Notes under the pieces: generated by a model | Seen by the model: the letters and a program-made list of their open reading frames with translations, nothing else | What the model was told of the DNA's origin: nothing | The model's database searches: none | Translations under genes and position numbers: made by a program | Assembly (NCBI GenBank): GCA_903844845.1 | Contig: CAIMVG010000022.1 | Coordinates: 1 to 42,546, forward strand | Length of the DNA stretch: 42,546 bases | Source of the DNA: an uncultured Dehalococcoidia bacterium | GTDB taxonomy: Bacteria; Chloroflexota; Dehalococcoidia; Dehalococcoidales; UBA1222 | Reading direction: 5' to 3' | In this document: in pieces, positions 14,626 through 42,546 of the stretch | Position numbering within the stretch: position 1 is the first letter of the stretch | Layout of the letters: every line of letters begins with the position of its first letter

Positions 14626-14637
14626 AACTCTTTGTCT

Positions 14638-14710
<73 letters not shown>

Positions 14711-14747
14711 TTTTAAAGCTAAAACCACCGGTGGGCAACCGAGTTGG

Positions 14748-15737
14748 ATGACTCTAGATACACTTACTCGCAGAACTTCTCAGGCACAAACACGCACAAC
14801 TCTAGACCTACTTATTGGCTCTGAAACCCTCGATGGCAGGCTCAAAGCTTTCCTGTTGGCCGGAAAGGTTGAAGGCCTCGCCCCAGACACACTTGAATAC
14901 TACGAATCCACCCTTACGCGCTTCATAAAATGCTGCGCAGAGATGCAGATCACCAAACTCGCGCAAGTGAAAGCGGAGCACATCCGTTTCTTCATGTCGC
15001 GCTTGCAGGAAACCAACAAACCCATTTCGGTGCATTGCTACTACCGCGCAATCAGACGCCTGTTCAACTGGTCGATGACGGAACAGATCATCACGGTCAA
15101 TCCGATGTCGGTCATCCGCCCGCCGCGCATCCCCGAAAAAGTCATCGTCCCTTTCGCCGATGATGACATAAGAAAGATGATCGCTTTGTGCGACGCCCGC
15201 GATTCGTTTTTCGACAAGCGCAACAAAGCTATCATCCTGACTTTTTTGGATTCCGGGCTCCGCGCACTCGAGATGTTTCACGTCAACCTGGCGGACGTCG
15301 ACCTGCAGAACGGCAGCATCATCGTCATGGGCAAGGGCGCGAAACAGCGTTTCGTTCCCATCAGCCACTTCACTACCAAAGCCATCATGACCTATCTGTA
15401 TATGCGGAATGACAGCTACCCGAACCTCTGGCTCAGCGAGGAACACACGCCTCTCAAGAACCCTTGTGCCATCCGTCAGATGATCGGTAAGCTGGCAAAG
15501 CGGGCCGGGGTAACGGGGGTCCGGGCGTCGCCCCATACCTTCCGTCATACCTTCGGGACACGAACGCTTGAAAACGGCGCTAACGTCTTTCAGGTAAAAG
15601 CCCTGCTCGGCCATGCCACGCTGGATATGACGCGCAAATATTCCGCGACGCTGGATAGTCGGCAGGCGGTCGAGGCCCACCACGGCACCAATGGGCACAA
15701 AGGCTTCTCGCCGGTCGAGAACATGAAGCTAAGATAG
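14748..15737 (+). CDS. int: Tyrosine recombinase / phage integrase
   Basis: This 329-residue integrase would insert and excise the element at tRNA-Lys. It has an N-terminal SAM-like core-binding domain (residues about 29-115) and a catalytic domain with R172 (SGLRALE), K196 (GKGAKQRFVP), H263 and R266 (PHTFRH), H289 (LLGHA) and the nucleophile Y298 (TRKYSA), so the full catalytic set is present. Arm-type N-terminal domains are not obvious, as in XerC/D-like phage integrases. A bidirectional-looking terminator follows directly. Confidence 0.95.
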   Translation: MTLDTLTRRTSQAQTRTTLDLLIGSETLDGRLKAFLLAGKVEGLAPDTLEYYESTLTRFIKCCAEMQITKLAQVKAEHIRFFMSRLQETNKPISVHCYYRAIRRLFNWSMTEQIITVNPMSVIRPPRIPEKVIVPFADDDIRKMIALCDARDSFFDKRNKAIILTFLDSGLRALEMFHVNLADVDLQNGSIIVMGKGAKQRFVPISHFTTKAIMTYLYMRNDSYPNLWLSEEHTPLKNPCAIRQMIGKLAKRAGVTGVRASPHTFRHTFGTRTLENGANVFQVKALLGHATLDMTRKYSATLDSRQAVEAHHGTNGHKGFSPVENMKLR

Positions 15738-30621: not shown

Positions 30622-32289
30622 TCATTGCGTCTTCACCTGCCTTCCCCCGCCGAACACCGGCACCGCCTGGATGGCCGAAGGTTTGGCGAGTGCGTTTTGT
30701 TCGAGATTTACCACCGTCGGCTGGCTCTCCGAGGCCTTCCTCTGTTTTATGATGCTTATGATCCGTTCGAGGATCGTCCGCGCCAGCAGGTCGTTCCAGT
30801 CCTTCGTGTCTTTGTCGTCGGATGCTTCCTGCGCCTTGATGAACCCCCGCATCTGGTTTTCGAGTGCTATCACCGGGTCCGCTTTTGCGGCCTGTTCGAT
30901 GGCAATCTGCGCCCGTTCGCCCGCAGGATCCTGAAGCCTCAGCACCTGTTCCTGCTTGTACTCTTCCGAAACGTGGTCGCCGAGAGCATTGCATATCGCG
31001 GCAGCGCCCGCCATCTGCTCCTGGGACGAGGTATAGAACCGGTATTTGATGACATATTCCCCGTCGAGGTCTACCGGCGAGTATGTGCGCCGGTGTCCTT
31101 CTTCCCCGAGGTCGAGTTTCTCCCCGAACCGCTGGAACTGCCTTACCTTCATCCGTGCGGAAGATTGACATAATGCGGCAAGTGCGTTGAGGCGCGGAAG
31201 CATCAATTCTTCCCTTCCGCTCGTGATGCGCGTGATAGCCACGGCGGACAAGGGCAAGTCAATGGTTCCGTAATCCATGGCTGAGAACGTGCCCCGGTCT
31301 ATCTGCTCCTGGATGATCTGCGCGTATCGCACGGTGGAGTCTGCGACGTCCGGACGGGGTATTAGCTGCGCGGCTTCTTTCGTCTGGAGCATCACGCCCG
31401 TTCCGGCGGGATATTCCGCCGGTAGCGCCTGATAGTCGCCGTCCGCGGGAGAGGGAAACTGGAGATCAGGCGCAATGGATTTCGAGGAAAGCGTTTTTAG
31501 GTTGGAGGCCACGAAGTTCTTTTCCTCAAACAGGTAATGCCCGTCCGAAGTGCGGAGTGAGTGCATGATGGAATCGCCGAGTCGCGTGTAGTAATCCGTA
31601 TCGCGCAGGGCTGAAGACGTGGCGGGAAAGGCTATCACGAACGGCGGATACCCGTAGCCGTTTGACCGTTCGTCCACCTGACGCCCGTCCACGAAGATGG
31701 CTTCCACTCCGTCGTTCCAGAAATCCAGGACGGGAGCGTTTTGCCTCGTGATCTGGCATCCGAACTCTGCTTCGATATCGGCGGCTGTGCGCAGGGTTTC
31801 GACGCATCCCCATATCATCTGCCCCTCGCTCAACTCATAAGTGAACCAGCGCGAGTCGATGGGGCGGGAGTCGGGGATGAGCTGCCCGTTTTCGACACGC
31901 AGGAGGTTTTGTTCGACGATAGGCCCCCGGGCGCAAACCAACTCGGTGTGCTGGGTGAAGGCGTCGGCCTCGCCTTTCGAGGCGAGCCGTGAATCTATCT
32001 CGAACTGTAAATCGTTGATGAAGTTTTCGATGTACGACGTCTTTTCCCCTGGCATCTTGCCGGATTCAACCAGCACCTGGCGGGAAACGGACGTTATTCT
32101 CGCCACGGCCTTATCCAGAAATTGCGCCGCGTCGAGGAGGGTGATGTGATAAGCCTTATCTATCTTCTTACCATCGACGCCGAGCATCTGGTACGGCCTC
32201 GAATGAAACATATCCGCGTCCCGGTCCATCCTCTCGAACATCGTGGACAGTTCGCTCTGTTTATTAGTGATTAATTTAAGATAATCCAT
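30622..32289 (-). CDS. Phage portal protein
   Basis: This 555-residue protein lies between the large terminase and the scaffold/capsid genes, the standard portal position. No catalytic motif is seen. N-terminal LDAAQFLDKAVARITSVSRQV, a beta-rich middle, then RTSDGHYLFEEKNF and GTIDLPLSAVAITRITSGREELMLPRLNALA with long helices match the portal wing-stem-crown pattern. The C-terminal 90 residues are Gln/Ala-rich and disordered. The ATG has GGAGAT upstream. The call rests on position plus the fold-like pattern; no strict family motif is known. Confidence 0.78.
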   Translation of the reverse strand: MDYLKLITNKQSELSTMFERMDRDADMFHSRPYQMLGVDGKKIDKAYHITLLDAAQFLDKAVARITSVSRQVLVESGKMPGEKTSYIENFINDLQFEIDSRLASKGEADAFTQHTELVCARGPIVEQNLLRVENGQLIPDSRPIDSRWFTYELSEGQMIWGCVETLRTAADIEAEFGCQITRQNAPVLDFWNDGVEAIFVDGRQVDERSNGYGYPPFVIAFPATSSALRDTDYYTRLGDSIMHSLRTSDGHYLFEEKNFVASNLKTLSSKSIAPDLQFPSPADGDYQALPAEYPAGTGVMLQTKEAAQLIPRPDVADSTVRYAQIIQEQIDRGTFSAMDYGTIDLPLSAVAITRITSGREELMLPRLNALAALCQSSARMKVRQFQRFGEKLDLGEEGHRRTYSPVDLDGEYVIKYRFYTSSQEQMAGAAAICNALGDHVSEEYKQEQVLRLQDPAGERAQIAIEQAAKADPVIALENQMRGFIKAQEASDDKDTKDWNDLLARTILERIISIIKQRKASESQPTVVNLEQNALAKPSAIQAVPVFGGGRQVKTQ

Positions 32290-34002: not shown

Positions 34003-35286
34003 TCACCACCCCCGTCTCATCTCCGGCCCTTGGCTCGCCGGGGCAGTCTCCGGCGTGAAGCCGCTCAGGATATACCTCATGCAATCCATGAGGTGGAACT
34101 TGGCCTTGTCCTCTATCTCGTTGGTGATGATGCCCGAGCAATCCGCTTTCCACTTGTAGACCGACAGCTCCGATAGCGTCAGCACCATGTCGTCGAAGAT
34201 GCGTATCTTGTCGAGCTCGAACATCCCCCGCACCTTGTCTATGCCCGCCCCCACGTTGCCCAACCTCGGCTCCTTTATGGGCCAGCCATGCGATGAGTAG
34301 CCCTGCCGTATTTCGTCTTCCTGATGGCTCCCGCCCGCCCGCGTGTCCACGTGCAGGCCGGCGGTGATGCGCTTGAATTCCTCGACGTGCTGGTAAGTCG
34401 AGCGCCCACCCCCGGGTAGGTATTCGTTGAACAGATAGAAGTAGCCGGTATCCGGGTCTTTGGCGAAGAAGAGCGCCGCCGGGTTGGCGGAGCCGAAGTC
34501 GTGCCCTGAATATACGCGCCACCTCTCGGGGATGGCGAAGCGCGGCACCTTGCATATCCTCTCGTTGAAACTCGAATAGATGAGCTGCCTGGGTGACACC
34601 TCATCGTCTTCGGCCATTATCTCCTGCCGGTAGGCCGTCTGGCTCATGTCCGCTGCGACTATCTTTAGCGCGTCCTGCGAGATGAAAGGATTGTCCCAGG
34701 ATGTGAAATGGAAAACTTCCCACATACCGCTCGTATCAGAGGCGGCCTTTTTGTAGAGTTTGGAGGCATGGAGCGGGTCCCGCGCTTTGGATACCCCGGC
34801 GGAGATTAAGGATGGCGGTGTGTAGATGAACACCGCGTCGCCGTTGTTATCGAGGAGCATGGGCTGGCCCACCACTTCCCAGGCGTCCTCGTTCATGAGT
34901 TGGTATTCGTCGAGGTAGAGGTCGTCGGCATAGTCGCCGCGGAGGGTGTCGGCGTTCCAGGCGGTCTTGGCCTTGATGCGCTGTTTGGTTCCGACGAGCT
35001 CGATGGTGCGGTCGGACTTGTCCACCTTGTAGACGCCCGCGCTTATCGGTGCCGCGAGGGCGCGGAGAACTTCGAACCAGAAAGCGTCCGTCTGTTCAGC
35101 AGTAGGAGCGGCGTATAACTGCCGGCGCTTTTTTAGAAAACGTTCCACCGCGCGGGTGGCAATACCGACGGTCTTCCCGCCCCGCCGTCCCGCCTTGATG
35201 ACGATGCGTTTCTTGCCGGAGAAGACGAAGGCGTGCTGGAAAGCGTGTTTCTCGGTAGCGCGGAGGTGCGCGACGGGGTTATCCAT
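34003..35286 (-). CDS. terL: Terminase large subunit
   Basis: This is the 427-residue packaging motor. The ATPase domain has Walker A AGRRGGKT (residues 32-39), Walker B LYLDE (123-127) and coupling motif FIYTPPS. The C-terminal RNase-H-like nuclease shows GHDFGSANPAALFF (first metal Asp) and later acidic residues (DKVRGMFELDKI, then DCMRY). It overlaps the small subunit gene by 8 bases. The protein is intact and on the minus strand. The packaging type (pac or cos) cannot be told by eye. Confidence 0.95.
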   Translation of the reverse strand: MDNPVAHLRATEKHAFQHAFVFSGKKRIVIKAGRRGGKTVGIATRAVERFLKKRRQLYAAPTAEQTDAFWFEVLRALAAPISAGVYKVDKSDRTIELVGTKQRIKAKTAWNADTLRGDYADDLYLDEYQLMNEDAWEVVGQPMLLDNNGDAVFIYTPPSLISAGVSKARDPLHASKLYKKAASDTSGMWEVFHFTSWDNPFISQDALKIVAADMSQTAYRQEIMAEDDEVSPRQLIYSSFNERICKVPRFAIPERWRVYSGHDFGSANPAALFFAKDPDTGYFYLFNEYLPGGGRSTYQHVEEFKRITAGLHVDTRAGGSHQEDEIRQGYSSHGWPIKEPRLGNVGAGIDKVRGMFELDKIRIFDDMVLTLSELSVYKWKADCSGIITNEIEDKAKFHLMDCMRYILSGFTPETAPASQGPEMRRGW

Positions 35287-35764
35287 CGTAACGCACTTCG
35301 ACGATCTGCGGCCCCCCGTCCTTGCCGCATATTTCCTGCTTGTCGCTGAATCCGAGGATATTCTTTGACAGCCATATCTGCATGATGATGTTGGGTTCGC
35401 GCCCGCCGGTGAAGACTTGCTTCCCGTTTTTATATACCGGCTGGTTGAACGTGTCCAGCTCCGGGGTGCCCGGGCATCCTTTGGCAGATTCCCACATGAG
35501 GCTGCGCAGGCTGGTCTTGCCCCTGGCCTTGCCGTCTTCGTATTTTTGGAGGAAGTCCGGGTCGTTCTTCTTGTGGTTCGTGATGGTAGAGCGGTTTACT
35601 CTGAGTTTGGCCGCTATCTCTTCGTCTGTGCACTGATCCTCAAGGAGTACCTGCATCTTTTGCATCTGTTCTTCGGTGAATTTTATAGCAGGCCGCCCGC
35701 CGTGGTTCGGCGCGGCTGTTTCGCTAGGTTTTTCCGGGATGATGGGTTTATCGTTTTCAGTCAT
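35279..35764 (-). CDS. terS: Terminase small subunit
   Basis: This 161-residue DNA-recognition subunit begins at MTENDKPIIPEK (35764), with AGGAG 7 bases upstream; the ATG at 35785 lies before that site. The HTH (DEEIAAKLRVNRSTITNHKKNDP, about residues 50-75) and a helical KARGKTSLRSLMWESAKG segment for oligomerisation are typical, with a C-terminal beta segment. It is the first gene of the late block and divergent from the restriction-modification locus. Confidence 0.82.
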   Translation of the reverse strand: MTENDKPIIPEKPSETAAPNHGGRPAIKFTEEQMQKMQVLLEDQCTDEEIAAKLRVNRSTITNHKKNDPDFLQKYEDGKARGKTSLRSLMWESAKGCPGTPELDTFNQPVYKNGKQVFTGGREPNIIMQIWLSKNILGFSDKQEICGKDGGPQIVEVRYDG

Positions 35765-35802
35765 GATTTTCTCCTGTGTCGTCATAGCGCGTTTCCCTGT
35801 GT

Positions 35803-35882
35803 GTCATTGCGAAGCCACGCAGTGGCTGTGGCAATCTCGTTCCCTATCCCCTGTCATGCCGGAGCGTACATCCGGCATCCAT
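35803..35882. repeat. Composite dispersed repeat, copy B
   Basis: The same series of parts as 26718-26804: GTCATTGC, a hairpin (35813-35818 with 35822-35827), GTGGCAATC..CGTTCCC, spacer, and a second palindrome (35856-35863 with 35871-35878) ending ATCCAT. It lies in the 208-base divergent gap between terS and mod, a likely junction of modules. Confidence 0.75.
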
Positions 35883-35920
35883 TCGCCTCATCCCGTTCTC
35901 TTATTTTTATCTTTCGGCAA

Positions 35921-35929
35921 TGTTATACT
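35921..35929 (+). promoter_or_regulatory. Extended -10 promoter of the restriction-modification locus
   Basis: TGTTATACT has the TGN extension plus a near-consensus -10 at 35924-35929, 43 bases before the mod start. Extended -10 promoters can act with a poor -35, and none is clear here. Confidence 0.5.
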
Positions 35930-35972
35930 GGTGACGCTAATTCGTTCACGACTGCCCACGGAGGATATGATA

Positions 35973-37883
35973 ATGACCGATCAACCGGAAAGACTTGACC
36001 TGGGGTCCCCCGATATCGCTGCGAAAAAGATACAAGATCTCTTATTTTTATTTCCCGAGATTCGAACTGAGGATAGCAAAATAGATTTCGACCGTCTCAA
36101 GTCGGTATTGGGTGAGACGATTGATATTGGCAAGGAACGCTACGGCATGAACTGGCCAGGCAAAGCTGCCTGTTTCAATACGATTCAGCGACCTAGTATG
36201 GCTACTCTCCGTCCCGCTCCCGAAGAAAGCGTCAACTTTGATACCACAGAAAACCTCATCATTGAAGGAGACAATCTTGAGGTTTTAAAACTTCTCCAGA
36301 AGTCTTATTTGTGCAAAATCAAGATGATCTATATTGATCCGCCCTACAATACGGGGAATGATTTTATATACCCGGATAACTTTACCGAGAGCTTGCAGAC
36401 CTATCTGGAATATACCGGACAAGTGGGCACTGAAGGAAAGAAATTCGGAACGAACATGGAAACGGACGGCCGCTTTCATTCCAAGTGGATGAATATGATG
36501 TACCCTCGTCTTTATCTGGCGAGAAATCTGCTCAGAGAAGACGGGGTAATCTTTATATCTATCGATGATGGCGAAATCGATAATCTTAGAAAAATCTGTA
36601 ATGAGGTTTTTGGGGAAGAGTGCTTCGCTGGTTGTGTCACTCGCGTTACAGGTACACCAACTGGCGGGGGTAATAAGGCTTTGGTCAACGAAATCGATTA
36701 CGTCCTTGTCTATTTTAAGGCTCCAGACGTCAAAATCGAAGGTTTACCATTTACTGAAGATGATGCAGAAATCTACACGAAGAATGATGAGGATGGGTCG
36801 TATCTTACTCGCCCGTTACGGAGGACAGGCGGTGAAGACCGTCGCGAGGATCGTCCAACAATGTACTTTCCCCTGTTAGCGCCTGACGGACAAAAAGTGT
36901 ATCCCATTGCGCCAGCAGGTTACCAAAGCAGGTGGATCTGTGGCAAAGATAGATATGATGAACTTGAACGTGCAGGTCTAATAGAATGGAATAAAGTCAA
37001 AAAAAACGATCATGAAATATGGCAGGTTTATCAGAAGTTCTATCTGGAAGGCCGTCTCAAGCAACCGTCAAATCTTTGGTCTGAGTTGGAAGGGAATAAA
37101 AAAGCCACACGCGATTTAAAAATTATGTTTGACGGCACAAAAATCTTCAATTTCCCGAAACCCATCGGTTTGCTCAGACAAATAATCCAACTATCTGCCG
37201 ACGAAACACAGTCAATCGTACTCGACTTCTTCGCCGGTTCAGGCACCACTGGACATGCGGTCATGGCCCAGAACGTCGTCGACGGCGGCAATCGTCGCTA
37301 TATTCTTGTCCAGCTTCCGGAACAACTTGATATTGAAAGTAAAGTCCAGAAGATACCAGCAGAATTTTGCGATAAACTGGGCATCCCTCGCAACATCGCG
37401 GAGTTAACCAAGGAACGCCTGCGTCGGGCTTCGAAGAAGATACGGGAAGAAAACCCCATGTTCGCGGGTGACCTTGGTTTTCGGGTCTTCAAGCTCGCTG
37501 AATCCAACTTCAAGCCTTGGAACGCGCAGGGAGCGCAGGATGCGCAGACGCTGGAGAAGCAACTTGATTCTCACATTGACCACATTCGCGAGGATCGCAG
37601 CCCTGAGGACATTCTCTATGAAATTCTCTTGAAAAGTGGCTTTTCACTAACGATGCCCGTTGAAAACATAATCCTTGCTGGCAAGACGGTGTATAGCGTG
37701 GCGGTTGGGGCTATGCTTATTTGCCTTGAGAATCAAATTACAATTGAGCTCATCCGTAGTATTGCAGAAAAAAAGCCTGAGCGAGTGGTTTGTTTGGACC
37801 AAGGCTTTGCCGGTAATGACCAGCTTAAAACCAACGCGGTTCAAACGTTTAAAACGCGTGGCATCACATTTAGAACAGTCTAA
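35973..37883 (+). CDS. mod: Type III restriction-modification DNA methyltransferase (Mod)
   Basis: The 636-residue adenine-N6 methyltransferase and specificity subunit. The start at MTDQPERLDL has GGAGG at 8 bases; the frame upstream (to 35676) lies across terS and is not coding here. The order of motifs is beta class: DPPYNTGND (catalytic, residues 122-130) precedes LDFFAGSGTTGHA (AdoMet-binding, about 413-424). A target-recognition region lies between them, and the C-terminal 160 residues are variable. Coupled with rhuM and res downstream, it forms one plus-strand operon that can modify the host and, with Res, cleave foreign DNA. Confidence 0.94.
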   Translation: MTDQPERLDLGSPDIAAKKIQDLLFLFPEIRTEDSKIDFDRLKSVLGETIDIGKERYGMNWPGKAACFNTIQRPSMATLRPAPEESVNFDTTENLIIEGDNLEVLKLLQKSYLCKIKMIYIDPPYNTGNDFIYPDNFTESLQTYLEYTGQVGTEGKKFGTNMETDGRFHSKWMNMMYPRLYLARNLLREDGVIFISIDDGEIDNLRKICNEVFGEECFAGCVTRVTGTPTGGGNKALVNEIDYVLVYFKAPDVKIEGLPFTEDDAEIYTKNDEDGSYLTRPLRRTGGEDRREDRPTMYFPLLAPDGQKVYPIAPAGYQSRWICGKDRYDELERAGLIEWNKVKKNDHEIWQVYQKFYLEGRLKQPSNLWSELEGNKKATRDLKIMFDGTKIFNFPKPIGLLRQIIQLSADETQSIVLDFFAGSGTTGHAVMAQNVVDGGNRRYILVQLPEQLDIESKVQKIPAEFCDKLGIPRNIAELTKERLRRASKKIREENPMFAGDLGFRVFKLAESNFKPWNAQGAQDAQTLEKQLDSHIDHIREDRSPEDILYEILLKSGFSLTMPVENIILAGKTVYSVAVGAMLICLENQITIELIRSIAEKKPERVVCLDQGFAGNDQLKTNAVQTFKTRGITFRTV

Positions 37884-37893
37884 GGGAGCTGCT

Positions 37894-38934
37894 ATGAGCG
37901 ACGAGATAGTACCGCAGGAAAATGACATCATTTTCTACTCTACGCCAGAAGGCAATGTAGTCGTTGAAGTCGTTTATTCGGATGAATCATTCTGGCTGAG
38001 CCAGAAGAAAATGGCCGAGCTATTTGGGGTCGAAGTTAGTACCATCAATTATCATATCAAGGAAATTTATTCTGCCGGCGAACTCAAATCGGAGGCAACT
38101 GTTCGAAAATTTCGAATAGTTCAAGATGAAGGGGGGCGGCAGGTAACTCGCGAAGTGGATTTGTATAACCTTGATGCCATCATTTCAGTAGGATACCGCG
38201 TCAATAGCCGCCAGGCCACTCAATTCCGCATTTGGGCAACGGACACGCTCCGAGAGTTCATTATCAAAGGTTTTGTCCTGGACGACGAGCGTCTCAAACA
38301 GGGAAAACGTTTCGGCAAGGACTATTTCGATGAGTTGCTGGAACGTATCAGGGAAATTCGTGCCAGCGAACGTCGTTTTTACCTCAAGATTACCGATATT
38401 TACGAACAATGCAGCGTTGACTACAACCGTGAGGCGGAAATAACTCAAACTTTCTTTAAAACCGTACAGAATAAATTACATTGGGCCATCACAGGAAAAA
38501 CCGCTGCTGAGCTTATTGCTGAAAGGGCGAGCGCTGCCAAACCACATATGGGCTTGCAAACCTGGAAGAACGCCCCTCACGGCAAGGTCATGAAATCCGA
38601 CGTCAGCGTCGCCAAGAACTATCTTGAAGAGAAAGAGCTCAAAGAACTTGAGCGAATCGTCACCATGTACCTTGATTACGCAGAAAATCAGGCCGCCCGC
38701 CGAATACCTATGAAGATGACCGATTGGATAAAGAAGCTTGATGCCTTTCTTACATTCAATGAATATCAAATTCTGGATGACGCCGGGCATGTTTCCCATG
38801 AAGTCGCGGTAAAATTGGTCGAGGAAGAATACGGCAAGTTCCGTATAATTCAAGACAGAGATTACGAGAATGATTTTGAAAGGGAAGCAAAGAAGATCAC
38901 CGAGTCTCATAAACCTGCCAAGAAAAAGGAATGA
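37894..38934 (+). CDS. RhuM-family protein in the restriction-modification operon
   Basis: This is a 346-residue protein of the RhuM (virulence protein, Fic/DOC-associated) family. FWLSQKKMAELFGVEVSTINYHIKEIY is an HTH-like DNA-binding start; RQVTREVDLYNLDAIISVGYRVNS with the following RQATQFRIWATDTLREFI is the family core. The C-terminal part is helical and basic. GGGAG lies 5 bases before the ATG, and it ends with ATGA overlap into res. RhuM genes are known from pathogenicity and defence islands but lack an assigned biochemical function. Its position between mod and res suggests co-regulation. Confidence 0.9.
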   Translation: MSDEIVPQENDIIFYSTPEGNVVVEVVYSDESFWLSQKKMAELFGVEVSTINYHIKEIYSAGELKSEATVRKFRIVQDEGGRQVTREVDLYNLDAIISVGYRVNSRQATQFRIWATDTLREFIIKGFVLDDERLKQGKRFGKDYFDELLERIREIRASERRFYLKITDIYEQCSVDYNREAEITQTFFKTVQNKLHWAITGKTAAELIAERASAAKPHMGLQTWKNAPHGKVMKSDVSVAKNYLEEKELKELERIVTMYLDYAENQAARRIPMKMTDWIKKLDAFLTFNEYQILDDAGHVSHEVAVKLVEEEYGKFRIIQDRDYENDFEREAKKITESHKPAKKKE

Positions 38935-41912
38935 AGCTTCAATTCGATCCCAATCAACCCTTCCAGCTTGCCGCTATGGCTGCGGTAACTGAACTGTTCG
39001 AAGGCCAACCTCAGGGGCCCCCGGAATATTCCGTTATCAAGTTAGGCGAAATGGGTGGTATCTTTGCAGGACAACATCAAACAGAGTTGGGCGCCGGCAA
39101 TAGCCTGCTGTTAGCCGAAGACAAATTGTTATCCAACACCCGGGCTATCCAGATTCGCAATGACATTGAAGTGGTTGATACTTCAAAGCCACTTGAAGCC
39201 TGGGATATTTTCGACGGCCCCGCTAACAAGACCCGCAGATGTCCGCATTTCTCGGTTGAAATGGAAACCGGCACTGGCAAAACTTATGTGTACCTTCGAA
39301 CTATTTTCGAACTGTCCCAACGATACGGTTTTCAGAAGTTCATTATCGTCGTTCCGAGCATCGCTATTCGCGAAGGTGTCCTCAAGAACATCGAGATTAC
39401 CGCTGAGCATTTTCGAGCTATATATAACGGCCTTCCCTTCGAGCATTTCGTTTATGACGCCAAAAAGGTGAATCGCCTGCGTCAGTTTGCGGTAAGCAAT
39501 AACCTGCAGATATTGATTATCAATATCGACGCTTTCCGTAAAAATTTCACGGGCACGGAGGCCGAACAGAAGAGTAACGTTATCTACAAAGAAAGCGACA
39601 AACTTTCAGGGCGTCAACCCATTGAGTTCGTGCAGGCGGCCCGCCCTATCGTAATAATTGATGAACCTCAAAGCGTGGATAGCACCGAAAAATCGCAGGA
39701 AGCTATCAAGGCTCTGAATCCTCTGTGCACGCTCAGATATTCAGCTACACACCGCAATCCTTATAACCTCGTTTATCGTCTCGATCCCGTCCGTGCGTTC
39801 GAACTTAAGTTGGTGAAACAAATTGTGGTGGCCAGCGCCACTGCCGAAGGCGGGGCAAACGATGCTTTCGTGCGTGTGGAGAGTATCGATTATAAGAATG
39901 GTATCAAAGCTAAATTACGTATACTCGCACAGACAAACGATGGGCCGAAAGAAAAATCCATTACGGTTAAAAATGGTGCGGATCTTTTTGTCGTCTCAAA
40001 TGAGCGGGCTAGTTATCAACAGGGTTTTTCGATTGCCGAAATCAATGCCGAGCCTGGTAACGAATTTATCAGATTTAGTAATGGCCGCGTACTCCGATTA
40101 AACGAAGAAAGCGGCGGGCAACGCGAAGATATCTGGCGTACGCAAATTAAACACACGATCAAGAAACACCTTGAAAAGGAATTATTGGTACGAGCACGCG
40201 GTATCAAGGTATTGAGCCTGTTTTTTGTTGACCGTGTTGCCAATTACCGTGATTACGACGAAGCCGGACAACCCGTCAAAGGGAAATTCGCGCATGCTTT
40301 CGAGACCGAATTATTGGTTTTTGCCAAAGAGGAACGTTATAAGGAACTGGATTGGCTCAAATGGCCGATAGAAAAATTACATGATGGTTATTTTGCCCAA
40401 GACAGGAAAGGTGTCTACAAAGACACCCGCGGCGATACCGAAGCCGATGATAAAGTCTACGACCTTATAATGAAAAAGAAGGAGCAGTTGCTTTCGACGG
40501 ACGAACCTCTGCGCTTTATCTTTAGCCATTCCGCGCTGAGAGAAGGTTGGGACAACCCTAACGTTTTCCAGATATGCACGCTTAACGAGACAAGAAGCTC
40601 CGTAAAAAAGCGGCAGGAAATTGGGCGTGGTTTGCGACTGCCCGTAGATCAGAACGGGTTGCGCGTTTTCGACGATTCGATAAACAAACTATATATCATG
40701 GCTAATGAAAGCTATGAAGATTTTGCCCGCGCGTTACAGACTGAATACGAGGAAGATTGTGGCGTCACATTCGGCAAGGTTCCGATTACCGCGTTTGCCA
40801 AGCTGATGCGAATCGTTGATGGCATGGAGAAACCCATTGGGCGCGAACATGGCGAAGCCATACAGGCAAATCTAGTCAAACAGATGATGATTGACGTCGA
40901 CGGACGTATACAACCCAAATTTGATCCGCAGGGTAAAGATTTTAACTTGGAATTGCCTGAGTCATACGTTGACCTTACTTCACAGGTAATCGACTTGTTA
41001 TCATCCTATCAAACGGAGCGTCATATTAGTAAAGACAAAGATGAAGGGCCTAACCGTCTCAAAAAGGAAGTTAAGTTAAGCCCCGAGTTCAAGGCTTTGT
41101 GGGACAGAGTTAAGCCTAGGACTACCTACCGCGTTGAGTTTGATACGGAAAAGCTAGTCGTGAAAGCCGCAGACGCTCTTAAGCACATGAGTAAAATTGA
41201 ACTGCCGAAAATCAGCGTAATAACAGGTCGGGTTGGCGTCACAAAGGCTGGTGTAACTTCTGCGGCGATAGGCGTGTCAGAAGAACAAATTTCAAATACC
41301 GCGATTCAACTGCCCGACTTGCTAACATATTTGCAGAACGAGACAGAGTTAACGCGTTCGACGCTTGTACGAATATTGAAGAAATCGGGCCGCCTGGGTG
41401 AAATTTTCAATAATCCCCAACGCTTCATGGATGCTGTGGCCGCAATTCTTAAATATGAATTGCATCGCCTTATTGTGGATGGAATCAAATATGAATTAAT
41501 CCCTGGGTCCGGATCAGATGCGGAATGGGAACAGATCTTGTTCAAAAACGAAGAACTGATCAACTATTTATCCGCTTTGAAGGTGAACCATTCTATCTAT
41601 GAGTATGTGGTTTATGACTCAATTATCGAGCGCGACTTTGCCAAGGCTTTGGACAAACGAGAGGATATCAAACTATTCGTAAAATTGCCCGGCTGGTTCG
41701 AGATAGATACTCCCGTCGGCAAATATAACCCTGACTGGGCAATCGTGAGACAAGATGGACAGGCGTTTTACTTGATTAGAGAGACTAAAGCAACGTTAGA
41801 TTTTCTAAAGCTTCGAACTGATGAGGCTGATAAGGTCAGATGTGGGCAACGTCATTTTGAATTACTTGGAGTCCCTTTTGCAGTCGTTACGAACGCAGAC
41901 CAAGTAACTTAG
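38931..41912 (+). CDS. res: Type III restriction endonuclease subunit (Res)
   Basis: This 993-residue helicase-nuclease pairs with Mod to cut DNA with unmodified sites. SF2 motifs include Walker A METGTGKT (111-118), motif II IIDEPQ, LRYSATHRNPYN as motif III, and HSALREGWDNPNVF with IGRGLRLP as motifs V and VI. The C-terminal nuclease pattern NPDWAIV...FYLIRETK places D935, E951 and K953 in a PD-(D/E)XK arrangement. No frameshift or stop is seen, so the enzyme is likely active. It overlaps rhuM by 4 bases. Confidence 0.95.
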   Translation: MKLQFDPNQPFQLAAMAAVTELFEGQPQGPPEYSVIKLGEMGGIFAGQHQTELGAGNSLLLAEDKLLSNTRAIQIRNDIEVVDTSKPLEAWDIFDGPANKTRRCPHFSVEMETGTGKTYVYLRTIFELSQRYGFQKFIIVVPSIAIREGVLKNIEITAEHFRAIYNGLPFEHFVYDAKKVNRLRQFAVSNNLQILIINIDAFRKNFTGTEAEQKSNVIYKESDKLSGRQPIEFVQAARPIVIIDEPQSVDSTEKSQEAIKALNPLCTLRYSATHRNPYNLVYRLDPVRAFELKLVKQIVVASATAEGGANDAFVRVESIDYKNGIKAKLRILAQTNDGPKEKSITVKNGADLFVVSNERASYQQGFSIAEINAEPGNEFIRFSNGRVLRLNEESGGQREDIWRTQIKHTIKKHLEKELLVRARGIKVLSLFFVDRVANYRDYDEAGQPVKGKFAHAFETELLVFAKEERYKELDWLKWPIEKLHDGYFAQDRKGVYKDTRGDTEADDKVYDLIMKKKEQLLSTDEPLRFIFSHSALREGWDNPNVFQICTLNETRSSVKKRQEIGRGLRLPVDQNGLRVFDDSINKLYIMANESYEDFARALQTEYEEDCGVTFGKVPITAFAKLMRIVDGMEKPIGREHGEAIQANLVKQMMIDVDGRIQPKFDPQGKDFNLELPESYVDLTSQVIDLLSSYQTERHISKDKDEGPNRLKKEVKLSPEFKALWDRVKPRTTYRVEFDTEKLVVKAADALKHMSKIELPKISVITGRVGVTKAGVTSAAIGVSEEQISNTAIQLPDLLTYLQNETELTRSTLVRILKKSGRLGEIFNNPQRFMDAVAAILKYELHRLIVDGIKYELIPGSGSDAEWEQILFKNEELINYLSALKVNHSIYEYVVYDSIIERDFAKALDKREDIKLFVKLPGWFEIDTPVGKYNPDWAIVRQDGQAFYLIRETKATLDFLKLRTDEADKVRCGQRHFELLGVPFAVVTNADQVT

Positions 41913-42546
41913 CCCCACCCCGTTCAGTCGCGCTTCCTGCCACGTCCGCTCGACTGAACCCGCCCCCCGATGATACTGACGGCGAGGGTGACGCTTCTTG
42001 TGGCTATAGTGGCTTTACCCTGCCGATCTGCTTCGCAGTGGCTAGGGTAAAGCATTTGTATCAAACAGAGGGCACGAGGTTGTTGTCTCCACCCCTGCCA
42101 GTCGCCGCTCCGGACGCCGCACCGACTGGCACCTGCCCCGCCAAAATCCACGTTCTGCTTTCCCGTGTTCCGGTCTGGCTCGTTCTTTCGCGGCGCACCC
42201 CGTCAAGGAGGTAGGTGTTTGCCGGGTTGCAGCCGTTATCCTGTTAATTATCGGATGTCCTGCCCTGGGGCATGTATTCACAGCCCCCGCCACCTGCCAG
42301 TCGTCCGCTCACACGCCGCCGACTGGCCCCCGCATCTGAAAAGTCTTGAGTGTGTCCCCCAGTAACAGCCCGCACACCGCGGACTGTTACCCGCCCCCCA
42401 ATCAACTTGCGCCAAGCGGGAGGTTGAAACGGTCACTCGCCAGTTCATGCCTAATAAGTTGGCGATGGCTATAACTGGCTCGTTCCCTCGTGCGCCGCTC
42501 CGTCACCGCTAATTGTTCGCCGGAGCGTCGCACGTTCTTTGTTGCC
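41913..42546. other. Gene-free hairpin-rich region at the right edge
   Basis: There is no ORF with a believable start, codon use or family. At least seven hairpins are present: 41922-41930/41951-41959 (9 bp), 42012-42021/42044-42053 (10 bp with a nested CTGC-TTC-GCAG), 42096-42104/42123-42131 (9 bp), 42296-42303/42320-42327 (8 bp), 42362-42368/42384-42390 (7 bp), 42437-42442/42460-42465, and 42489-42502/42521-42534 (13 of 14). Several arms share (G)CCAGTCG...CGACTGG(C), and CCGCCCC-type tracts follow several hairpins. CTGGCTCGTT recurs exactly 300 bases apart (42175, 42475). Role unknown. Confidence 0.7.

Follow-up and report, generated by a model that had tools for sequence, protein, structure and literature searches.

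A hairpin-rich non-coding block recurs beside terminase and defence genes in the mobile elements of an uncultured Dehalococcoidia bacterium

The window analysed here is the whole of contig C22 (42,546 bases) of an uncultured Dehalococcoidia bacterium, and it ends on the right in an array of strong hairpins. This block is present in four long copies, each about 89% like the window, in the organism's own genome (1.91 Mb, 29 contigs). Two of the copies lie in terminase-bearing prophages and two in defence-bearing islands. We tentatively interpret the block as a conserved, cis-acting structured region of a prophage and island family, placed at the junction of early and late genes and serving in addition as a homology joint for a defence hotspot, an interpretation to which we give somewhat less than an even chance.

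Seven perfect stems of 7–10 bp, with loops of up to 30 bases, are found in positions 41913–42546 when stems are counted by perfect pairing over at least 7 bp and a loop of at most 30 (Table 1). Dinucleotide shuffles (n = 300) carry 0.94 such stems on average, and 0/300 reach seven; for stems of at least 8 bp, the count is 4 versus a shuffle mean of 0.18, which is likewise matched in 0/300 shuffles. Four of the hairpins have a CAGTC/GACTG-like stem in common, with loops of 20, 18, 16, and 15 nt and C-rich flanks, and the 31-nt repeat CTGGCTCGTT occurs twice at 74% identity with a spacing of exactly 300 bases. Folded as minus-strand RNA, H5 extends to 12 bp including one U-G pair. The block starts one base after the stop codon of Res, with a GC content of 60–61% versus 43–49% in the preceding 3.9 kb. 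A coding gene spanning the block was rejected because none of the reading frames is conserved in all four copies; the open stretches shift and contain indels. These measurements bear out the first-pass annotation, which had described at least seven stable hairpins in about 620 bases after the restriction genes, four related stems with loops of 15–20 bases, a sequence recurring at exactly 300 bases, and no ORF.

Table 1. Positions of the hairpin block, its elements, and neighbouring genes in the window, with the four block copies by contig.
Feature	Position	Strand	Basis
Block copies	C22:41913-end; C23:1-643; C3:328-956; C28:41254-41888		
Hairpin block, left 634 b of ~2.3-kb repeat, cut by contig end	41913..42546	.	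four ~89% copies, shuffle test, 141-b assembly overlap
Hairpin H1, stem GTTCAGTCG/CGACTGAAC, 9 bp	41922..41959	-	
Hairpin HP2, stem GCTTTACCCT/AGGGTAAAGC, 10 bp, plus inner CTGC-GAA-GCAG stem	42012..42053	-	
Hairpin H3, stem TGCCAGTCG/CGACTGGCA, 9 bp	42096..42131	-	
Hairpin H4, stem GCCAGTCG/CGACTGGC, 8 bp	42296..42327	-	
Hairpin H5, GTAACAGtCCGC/GCGGgCTGTTAC, 7 perfect bp	42362..42390	-	
Hairpin H6, GCCAGTT/AACTGGC, 7 bp	42439..42479	.	
Hairpin H8, CGCTCCG/CGGAGCG, 7 bp	42496..42527	.	
CTGGCTCGTT repeat, copy one	42175..42205	.	
CTGGCTCGTT repeat, copy two, 300 b further	42475..42505	.	
Res, type III restriction subunit, abuts block	38931..41912	+	Pfam; PADLOC REase_III E 2.4e-295
RhuM-family protein in restriction operon (start codon not refined)	37675..38934	+	Pfam PF13310; PADLOC PDC-S05
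Mod, type III methyltransferase (true start probably further in)	35676..37883	+	Pfam N6_N4_Mtase; PADLOC MTase_III
Terminase small subunit (TerS)	35279..35785	-	PHROG 309
Terminase large subunit (TerL)	34003..35286	-	PHROG 2, E 5.7e-41
Late gene after TerL, probably portal protein	30622..32289	-	gene order alone; no PHROG/Pfam match
Tyrosine integrase	14748..15737	+	Pfam PF00589; adjoins tRNA-Lys (14637-14711)

Variation among the four copies is concentrated outside the paired bases. Over 626 gap-free columns, 1/114 stem sites, 14/136 loop sites, and 98/376 spacer sites vary; without C22, where the stems were defined, the counts are 1/114, 9/136, and 77/376. By this pattern of variation, the hairpins are under strong selection. 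Stem pairing is kept between copies, and the array thus withstands one of the refuting conditions named in the first-pass annotation, a lack of conserved stem pairing in relatives. The stems are nearly invariant between copies (1/114), and compensation is seen between sister hairpins only; all comparisons are within the organism's own genome. Sister hairpins within one block differ on both arms of the outer stem and yet remain paired there. Counted by anchoring on the core, position -1 is C-G in 13 cases, T-A in 4, and A-T in 4; position -2 is G-C in 13, T-A in 4, and A-T in 4; position -3 is T-A in 13 and G-C in 4, with no pair there in the 4 cells of H4; and position -4 is paired in 10/21 hairpins. 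The inclusion of the 4 H5 rows among the sister hairpins was our alignment choice. MAFFT placed H1 one base off in alignment A2, and the covariance model was built on A3 without H1 (4/17 rows dropped). A purine-purine mismatch follows the core on the minus strand in all 17 CAGTCG hairpins (G-G 8, A-G 4, G-A 5). The inner loops vary in length and are not phased, which would suit a folded strand more readily than a pair of half-sites bound by a dimer.

The genome assembly shows how the copies are arranged. Its overlap length is 141 bases, and the right end of C22 and the left end of C23 share identical terminal 141 bases, so that both contigs probably run into one short missing piece. The left end of C3 overlaps the right end of C9 by exactly 141 bases, and these two contigs, at least, appear to be neighbours in the assembly graph; within the bin, C9 alone supplies another arm, and a single right arm (C9) thus faces three left arms (C3, C22, and C23). 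C22 ends at the block because the block is a multi-copy repeat. The right ends of C2, C3, C10, C11, and C19 also share their terminal 140–141 bases; the shared piece may be the end of an insertion sequence at which the assembly splits. The first-pass annotation had considered a position of the array at the end of the element. This placement did not hold: the unit continues for a further ~1.6 kb in C28, the block directly precedes the terminase genes in C3, and C9 holds its other side. An element end or attR was accordingly rejected as the location, the block being internal in both C3/C9 and C28; no attR was observed, and C22 stops within the block. When the end of tRNA-Lys was matched against stretches of the same genome, only an apparent other tRNA, in C28, was found.

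The copy in C28 (L007) is unbroken and lies on the minus strand. A full copy measures ~2.3 kb from H0 to a terminator-like hairpin and comprises nine or more hairpins and, after them, a set of tiny genes. The order is H0 (a sister hairpin before H1), H1, HP2, H3, H4, H5, H6, H8, H7 (also a sister), more palindromic sequence, and then tiny ORFs with ribosome-binding-like sites: ORF1 (65 aa), ORF2 (74 aa), and, by eye, ORF3 (~55 aa). ORF2 is identical in C9 and C28, and the tiny-gene operon as a whole is nearly identical in both; its strand is opposite to that of the phage genes, and Pfam gives no match for ORF1, ORF2, or ORF3. The terminator-like hairpin that closes the C28 unit is not kept in C9 and is absent from the pattern-scan listing. 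Five sites with ATTGTGCGTAAT-like motifs lie between the block and the operon in C28 (L007 4540–5020), one pair of them in a long imperfect palindrome; these motifs are iteron- or operator-like, and most are absent from C9.

The genes around the block differ from copy to copy. The prophage in C22 has its tyrosine integrase at tRNA-Lys and includes late genes, TerL, and TerS; a type III restriction operon separates TerS from the block. Between Mod and Res, and overlapping both frames, lies a RhuM-family gene (PADLOC candidate PDC-S05). Generic hairpin repeats of the GATTGCCACAGCC..GGCTTCGCAATGAC type occur upstream of TerS in the window (35780–36100) and in an IMG/VR relative (L043 1–209). In C3, the block directly precedes TerS and TerL, and no defence genes adjoin it. 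C9 constitutes the early arm facing the block, with a CI-like repressor, an RDF-like protein, a DnaD/DnaB-like protein, and RusA. The terminase side in C3 and the early arm in C9 together place the block at the early/late junction of a prophage. The C28 copy has HsdR on one side and, on the other, an island that carries an AAA_25 protein and an integrase at the apparent tRNA; an IetA-like AAA ATPase in this island (L007 932–2266, PADLOC E 6e-20) is a possible further defence gene. The C23 copy adjoins AbiEii, AbiEi, an HNH protein, and HsdMS. The same block is therefore flanked by type III restriction-modification (C22), AbiE and type I restriction-modification (C23), HsdR (C28), or no defence genes (C3); three of the four copies thus have unrelated defence operons next to them, with defence genes transcribed towards the block. 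TerL and the next late gene were detected in C22 and C3 only, the elements in C23 and C28 being cut by contig ends. The C23 and C28 islands, both incomplete, perhaps lack structural genes and are at most candidate satellites.

Sequence has also been exchanged between the copies. Informative sites for the three possible groupings number 12, 12, and 6, and one tract of 12 sites (columns 300–317) is swapped as a block. Between C22 and C3, identity is ~89% for the block, 81% for TerL, 73% for the next gene, and 47% for TerS. The greater likeness of the block than of neighbouring genes, together with the mosaic sites, shows that the copies were homogenised or exchanged apart from their flanks. The C22 TerL is 84–85%, and the next gene 87–89%, identical to those of IMG/VR phages L042–L045, whereas the C22 TerS is 46–49% identical to theirs and 47% to that of C3. 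TerL therefore groups with L042–L045 and TerS with neither, which implies an exchange of TerS with a breakpoint between the two genes. A TerS cognate to the block would be expected to group C22 with C3, yet identity is 47%, and this candidate was rejected; block and TerS did not travel together. The cargo boundaries in C22 and C23 lie near the starts of hairpin units (H1 and H0, respectively).

These observations outline how a cis-acting region might work. Early genes (replication, RusA) lie on one side of the block and late genes (terminase) on the other. The hairpins would act as nucleic-acid structures, either as DNA or as minus-strand RNA, that are bound by a protein of the element, and this binding may serve replication, packaging, or the early/late switch. 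The block could further act as a homology joint by which elements swap defence cargo, because every element carries it. Counted in favour are the four copies, two of them upstream of terminase (C3 directly, C22 with the restriction operon between) and two beside HsdR (C28) or AbiEii/AbiEi/HNH/HsdMS (C23). Counted against are the divergence of TerS relative to the block, which speaks against a tightly co-inherited TerS site, and two IMG/VR sequences, L044 and L045, without the block before TerS. Packaging is one candidate role, and it is partly contradicted. Promoter and terminator matches in the block are at shuffle level, and the analysis found neither a cos cleavage site nor a promoter or protein partner for it. 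A further proposal, which we regard as rather unlikely, is that the block is a new kind of structured element encoded by phages or satellites, either a large minus-strand RNA or DNA hairpins read by a protein. Its conserved, mismatch-bearing stem-loops would be recognised in trans by the protein of one co-resident element, so that a replication, packaging, or regulatory handle is shared by several prophages and islands of one cell and defence cargo is traded across it.

The best analogy for how the locus may work is offered by the hotspots that lie next to cos in P2 phages and P4 satellites. According to Rousset et al. (PMC9122126), P2 and P4 share cos, and defence hotspots adjoin it. The likeness lies in a short homologous non-coding region that occurs in phages and, apparently, in non-phage islands, with replication genes on one side, late genes on the other, and varying defence genes adjoining. 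The differences are another phage family and host, a ~2.3-kb unit with a hairpin array and tiny genes, and cargo that is partly larger (6 kb); a cos role and satellites, established for P2/P4, are here candidates drawn from sequence. Literature listings for hairpins with terminase and for Dehalococcoidia prophages include nothing on the block.

The main rival to a cis-acting region is that the minus strand, read in the direction of the terminase genes, yields a large structured non-coding RNA whose hairpins bind protein or form an RNA complex; its promoter might lie near the tiny-gene operon. We consider this possible, though on balance unlikely. The 17/17 purine-purine mismatches fall on the minus strand, and all 21 tested hairpins fold better as minus-strand than as plus-strand RNA. 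Wobble pairs that hold on one strand only number 12 cells on the minus strand versus 3, although they stem from about four events, and a change in HP2 of C28 gives U-G on the minus strand only. Minus-strand fold z-scores of the four copies are -4.2, -2.2, -3.0, and -2.4, compared with a range of -1.7 to 0.8 when three mainly coding control stretches were folded on both strands (six folds); however, the plus strand gives -2.8, -2.6, -1.5, and -1.1, so that some copies beat shuffles there as well, and DNA folding is equal on both strands (z ~ -4.9). Such a transcript would run antisense into defence genes in three copies, and no promoter was found for it. Rfam offers no match either: on the window, the single match at gathering score is a tRNA, and on L007 3500–6300, there are two hits only, both far below gathering scores. 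The comparison of strands leans towards minus-strand RNA over DNA, but on few independent events. GOLLD and ROOL ornate RNAs (PMC12286853) are likewise large, hairpin-rich non-coding regions of prophages; the block differs in having no Rfam match, in lying away from tRNA islands, and in having repeated sister hairpins rather than one intricate fold.

Searches beyond the genome returned no homologue of the block, hence no independent covariation. Its DNA has no match in the phage and plasmid collections, and the exact block pattern, ORF1, and ORF2 have none in IMG/VR; a phage protein search with ORF2 also found none, and among 200 relatives, ORF2 occurs in the organism's own genome only. Among 101 relatives, the block was found in its own genome, with one 27-base match in another (G028, E 7.7e-4) that we take as chance. 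The hairpin covariance model, R1, hits only the own genome among 393 genomes of the class and 400 of the phylum (overlapping sets, stricter filters). Four hairpin patterns match 8, 6, 20, and 0 IMG/VR stretches, with one site per contig, and the model run on 28 loci from the 8- and 20-stretch patterns gives a best E of 0.024, treated as chance. No convincing block match was found in 18 loci around related terminases, and a terminase search of genome contigs yielded one relative at 62%, in a Dehalococcoidia MAG. The block was rejected as a universal part of this phage type on the basis of L044/L045 (one phage by sequence, TerL 84% identical), which lack it before TerS; L042 and L043, with only 0 and 209 bases upstream of TerS, are uninformative on this point.

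Insertion of the block beside mobile-element genes as a non-coding mobile or homing-like unit, with the hairpins as its attC-like or HUH-like recombination sites, is in our judgment improbable. Its identity does exceed that of the surrounding phage genes (TerL 81%, TerS 47%), and the cargo boundaries in C22 and C23 are close to hairpin starts. Nevertheless, the genome encodes no Y1 transposase, no target duplication or empty site was found, and homology continues weakly beyond the right side of the unit, as expected of a shared backbone. Integron attC arrays are folded sites beside cargo genes, and the block is similar to this extent. Unlike such arrays, its hairpins show, by eye, no paired RYYYAAC/GTTRRRY boxes, and no cassette lies between successive sites.

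Still more doubtful is a role as the regulatory region of the tiny-gene operon, in which the block would act on the plus strand as an operator field or as a structured leader of great length. The tiny ORFs do lie downstream on the same strand, near-identical in C9 and C28, and the ATTGTGCGTAAT-like motifs sit between block and operon in C28, yet C9 lacks the part rich in these motifs, and several hundred bases separate the block from the first ORF.

Equally doubtful is that palindromes built up between genes, in a REP-like or neutral manner, and were copied passively as prophages recombined. The generic hairpin repeats, of a different type, upstream of TerS in C3, C22, and L043 would fit this, but spacers are far less conserved than stems and loops, 17/17 exact-core sites and 15/15 model matches fall inside the four blocks rather than being dispersed, and REP/BIME elements were rejected because PF01797 (Y1 transposase), and with it any RAYT-type transposase, has 0 matches in the genome, whereas 5/14 control genomes are positive. 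REP, BIME, and REPIN sequences (PMC3116915, PMC2817692, PMC3733652) resemble the block as imperfect-palindrome clusters in non-coding DNA; the block differs in its restriction to four mobile-element loci, its lack of a RAYT/Y1 transposase, and its long conserved spacers. Among the explanations listed in the first-pass annotation, a structured RNA and a replication or packaging site remain the best readings, the latter as a replication, packaging, or control region where early and late genes meet; a REP-like expansion at an element end does not.

If the block is a cis-acting region as we propose, the P2/P4 picture of a shared non-coding handle with swappable defence genes would extend to phages of a little-studied and hardly cultivated class. 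It would also offer a concrete structure, defined at the sequence level, from which the partner protein could be found, and would account for the exchange of defence systems among several mobile elements in one cell. The block explains, too, why contigs of this kind break exactly beside defence genes in short-read assemblies.
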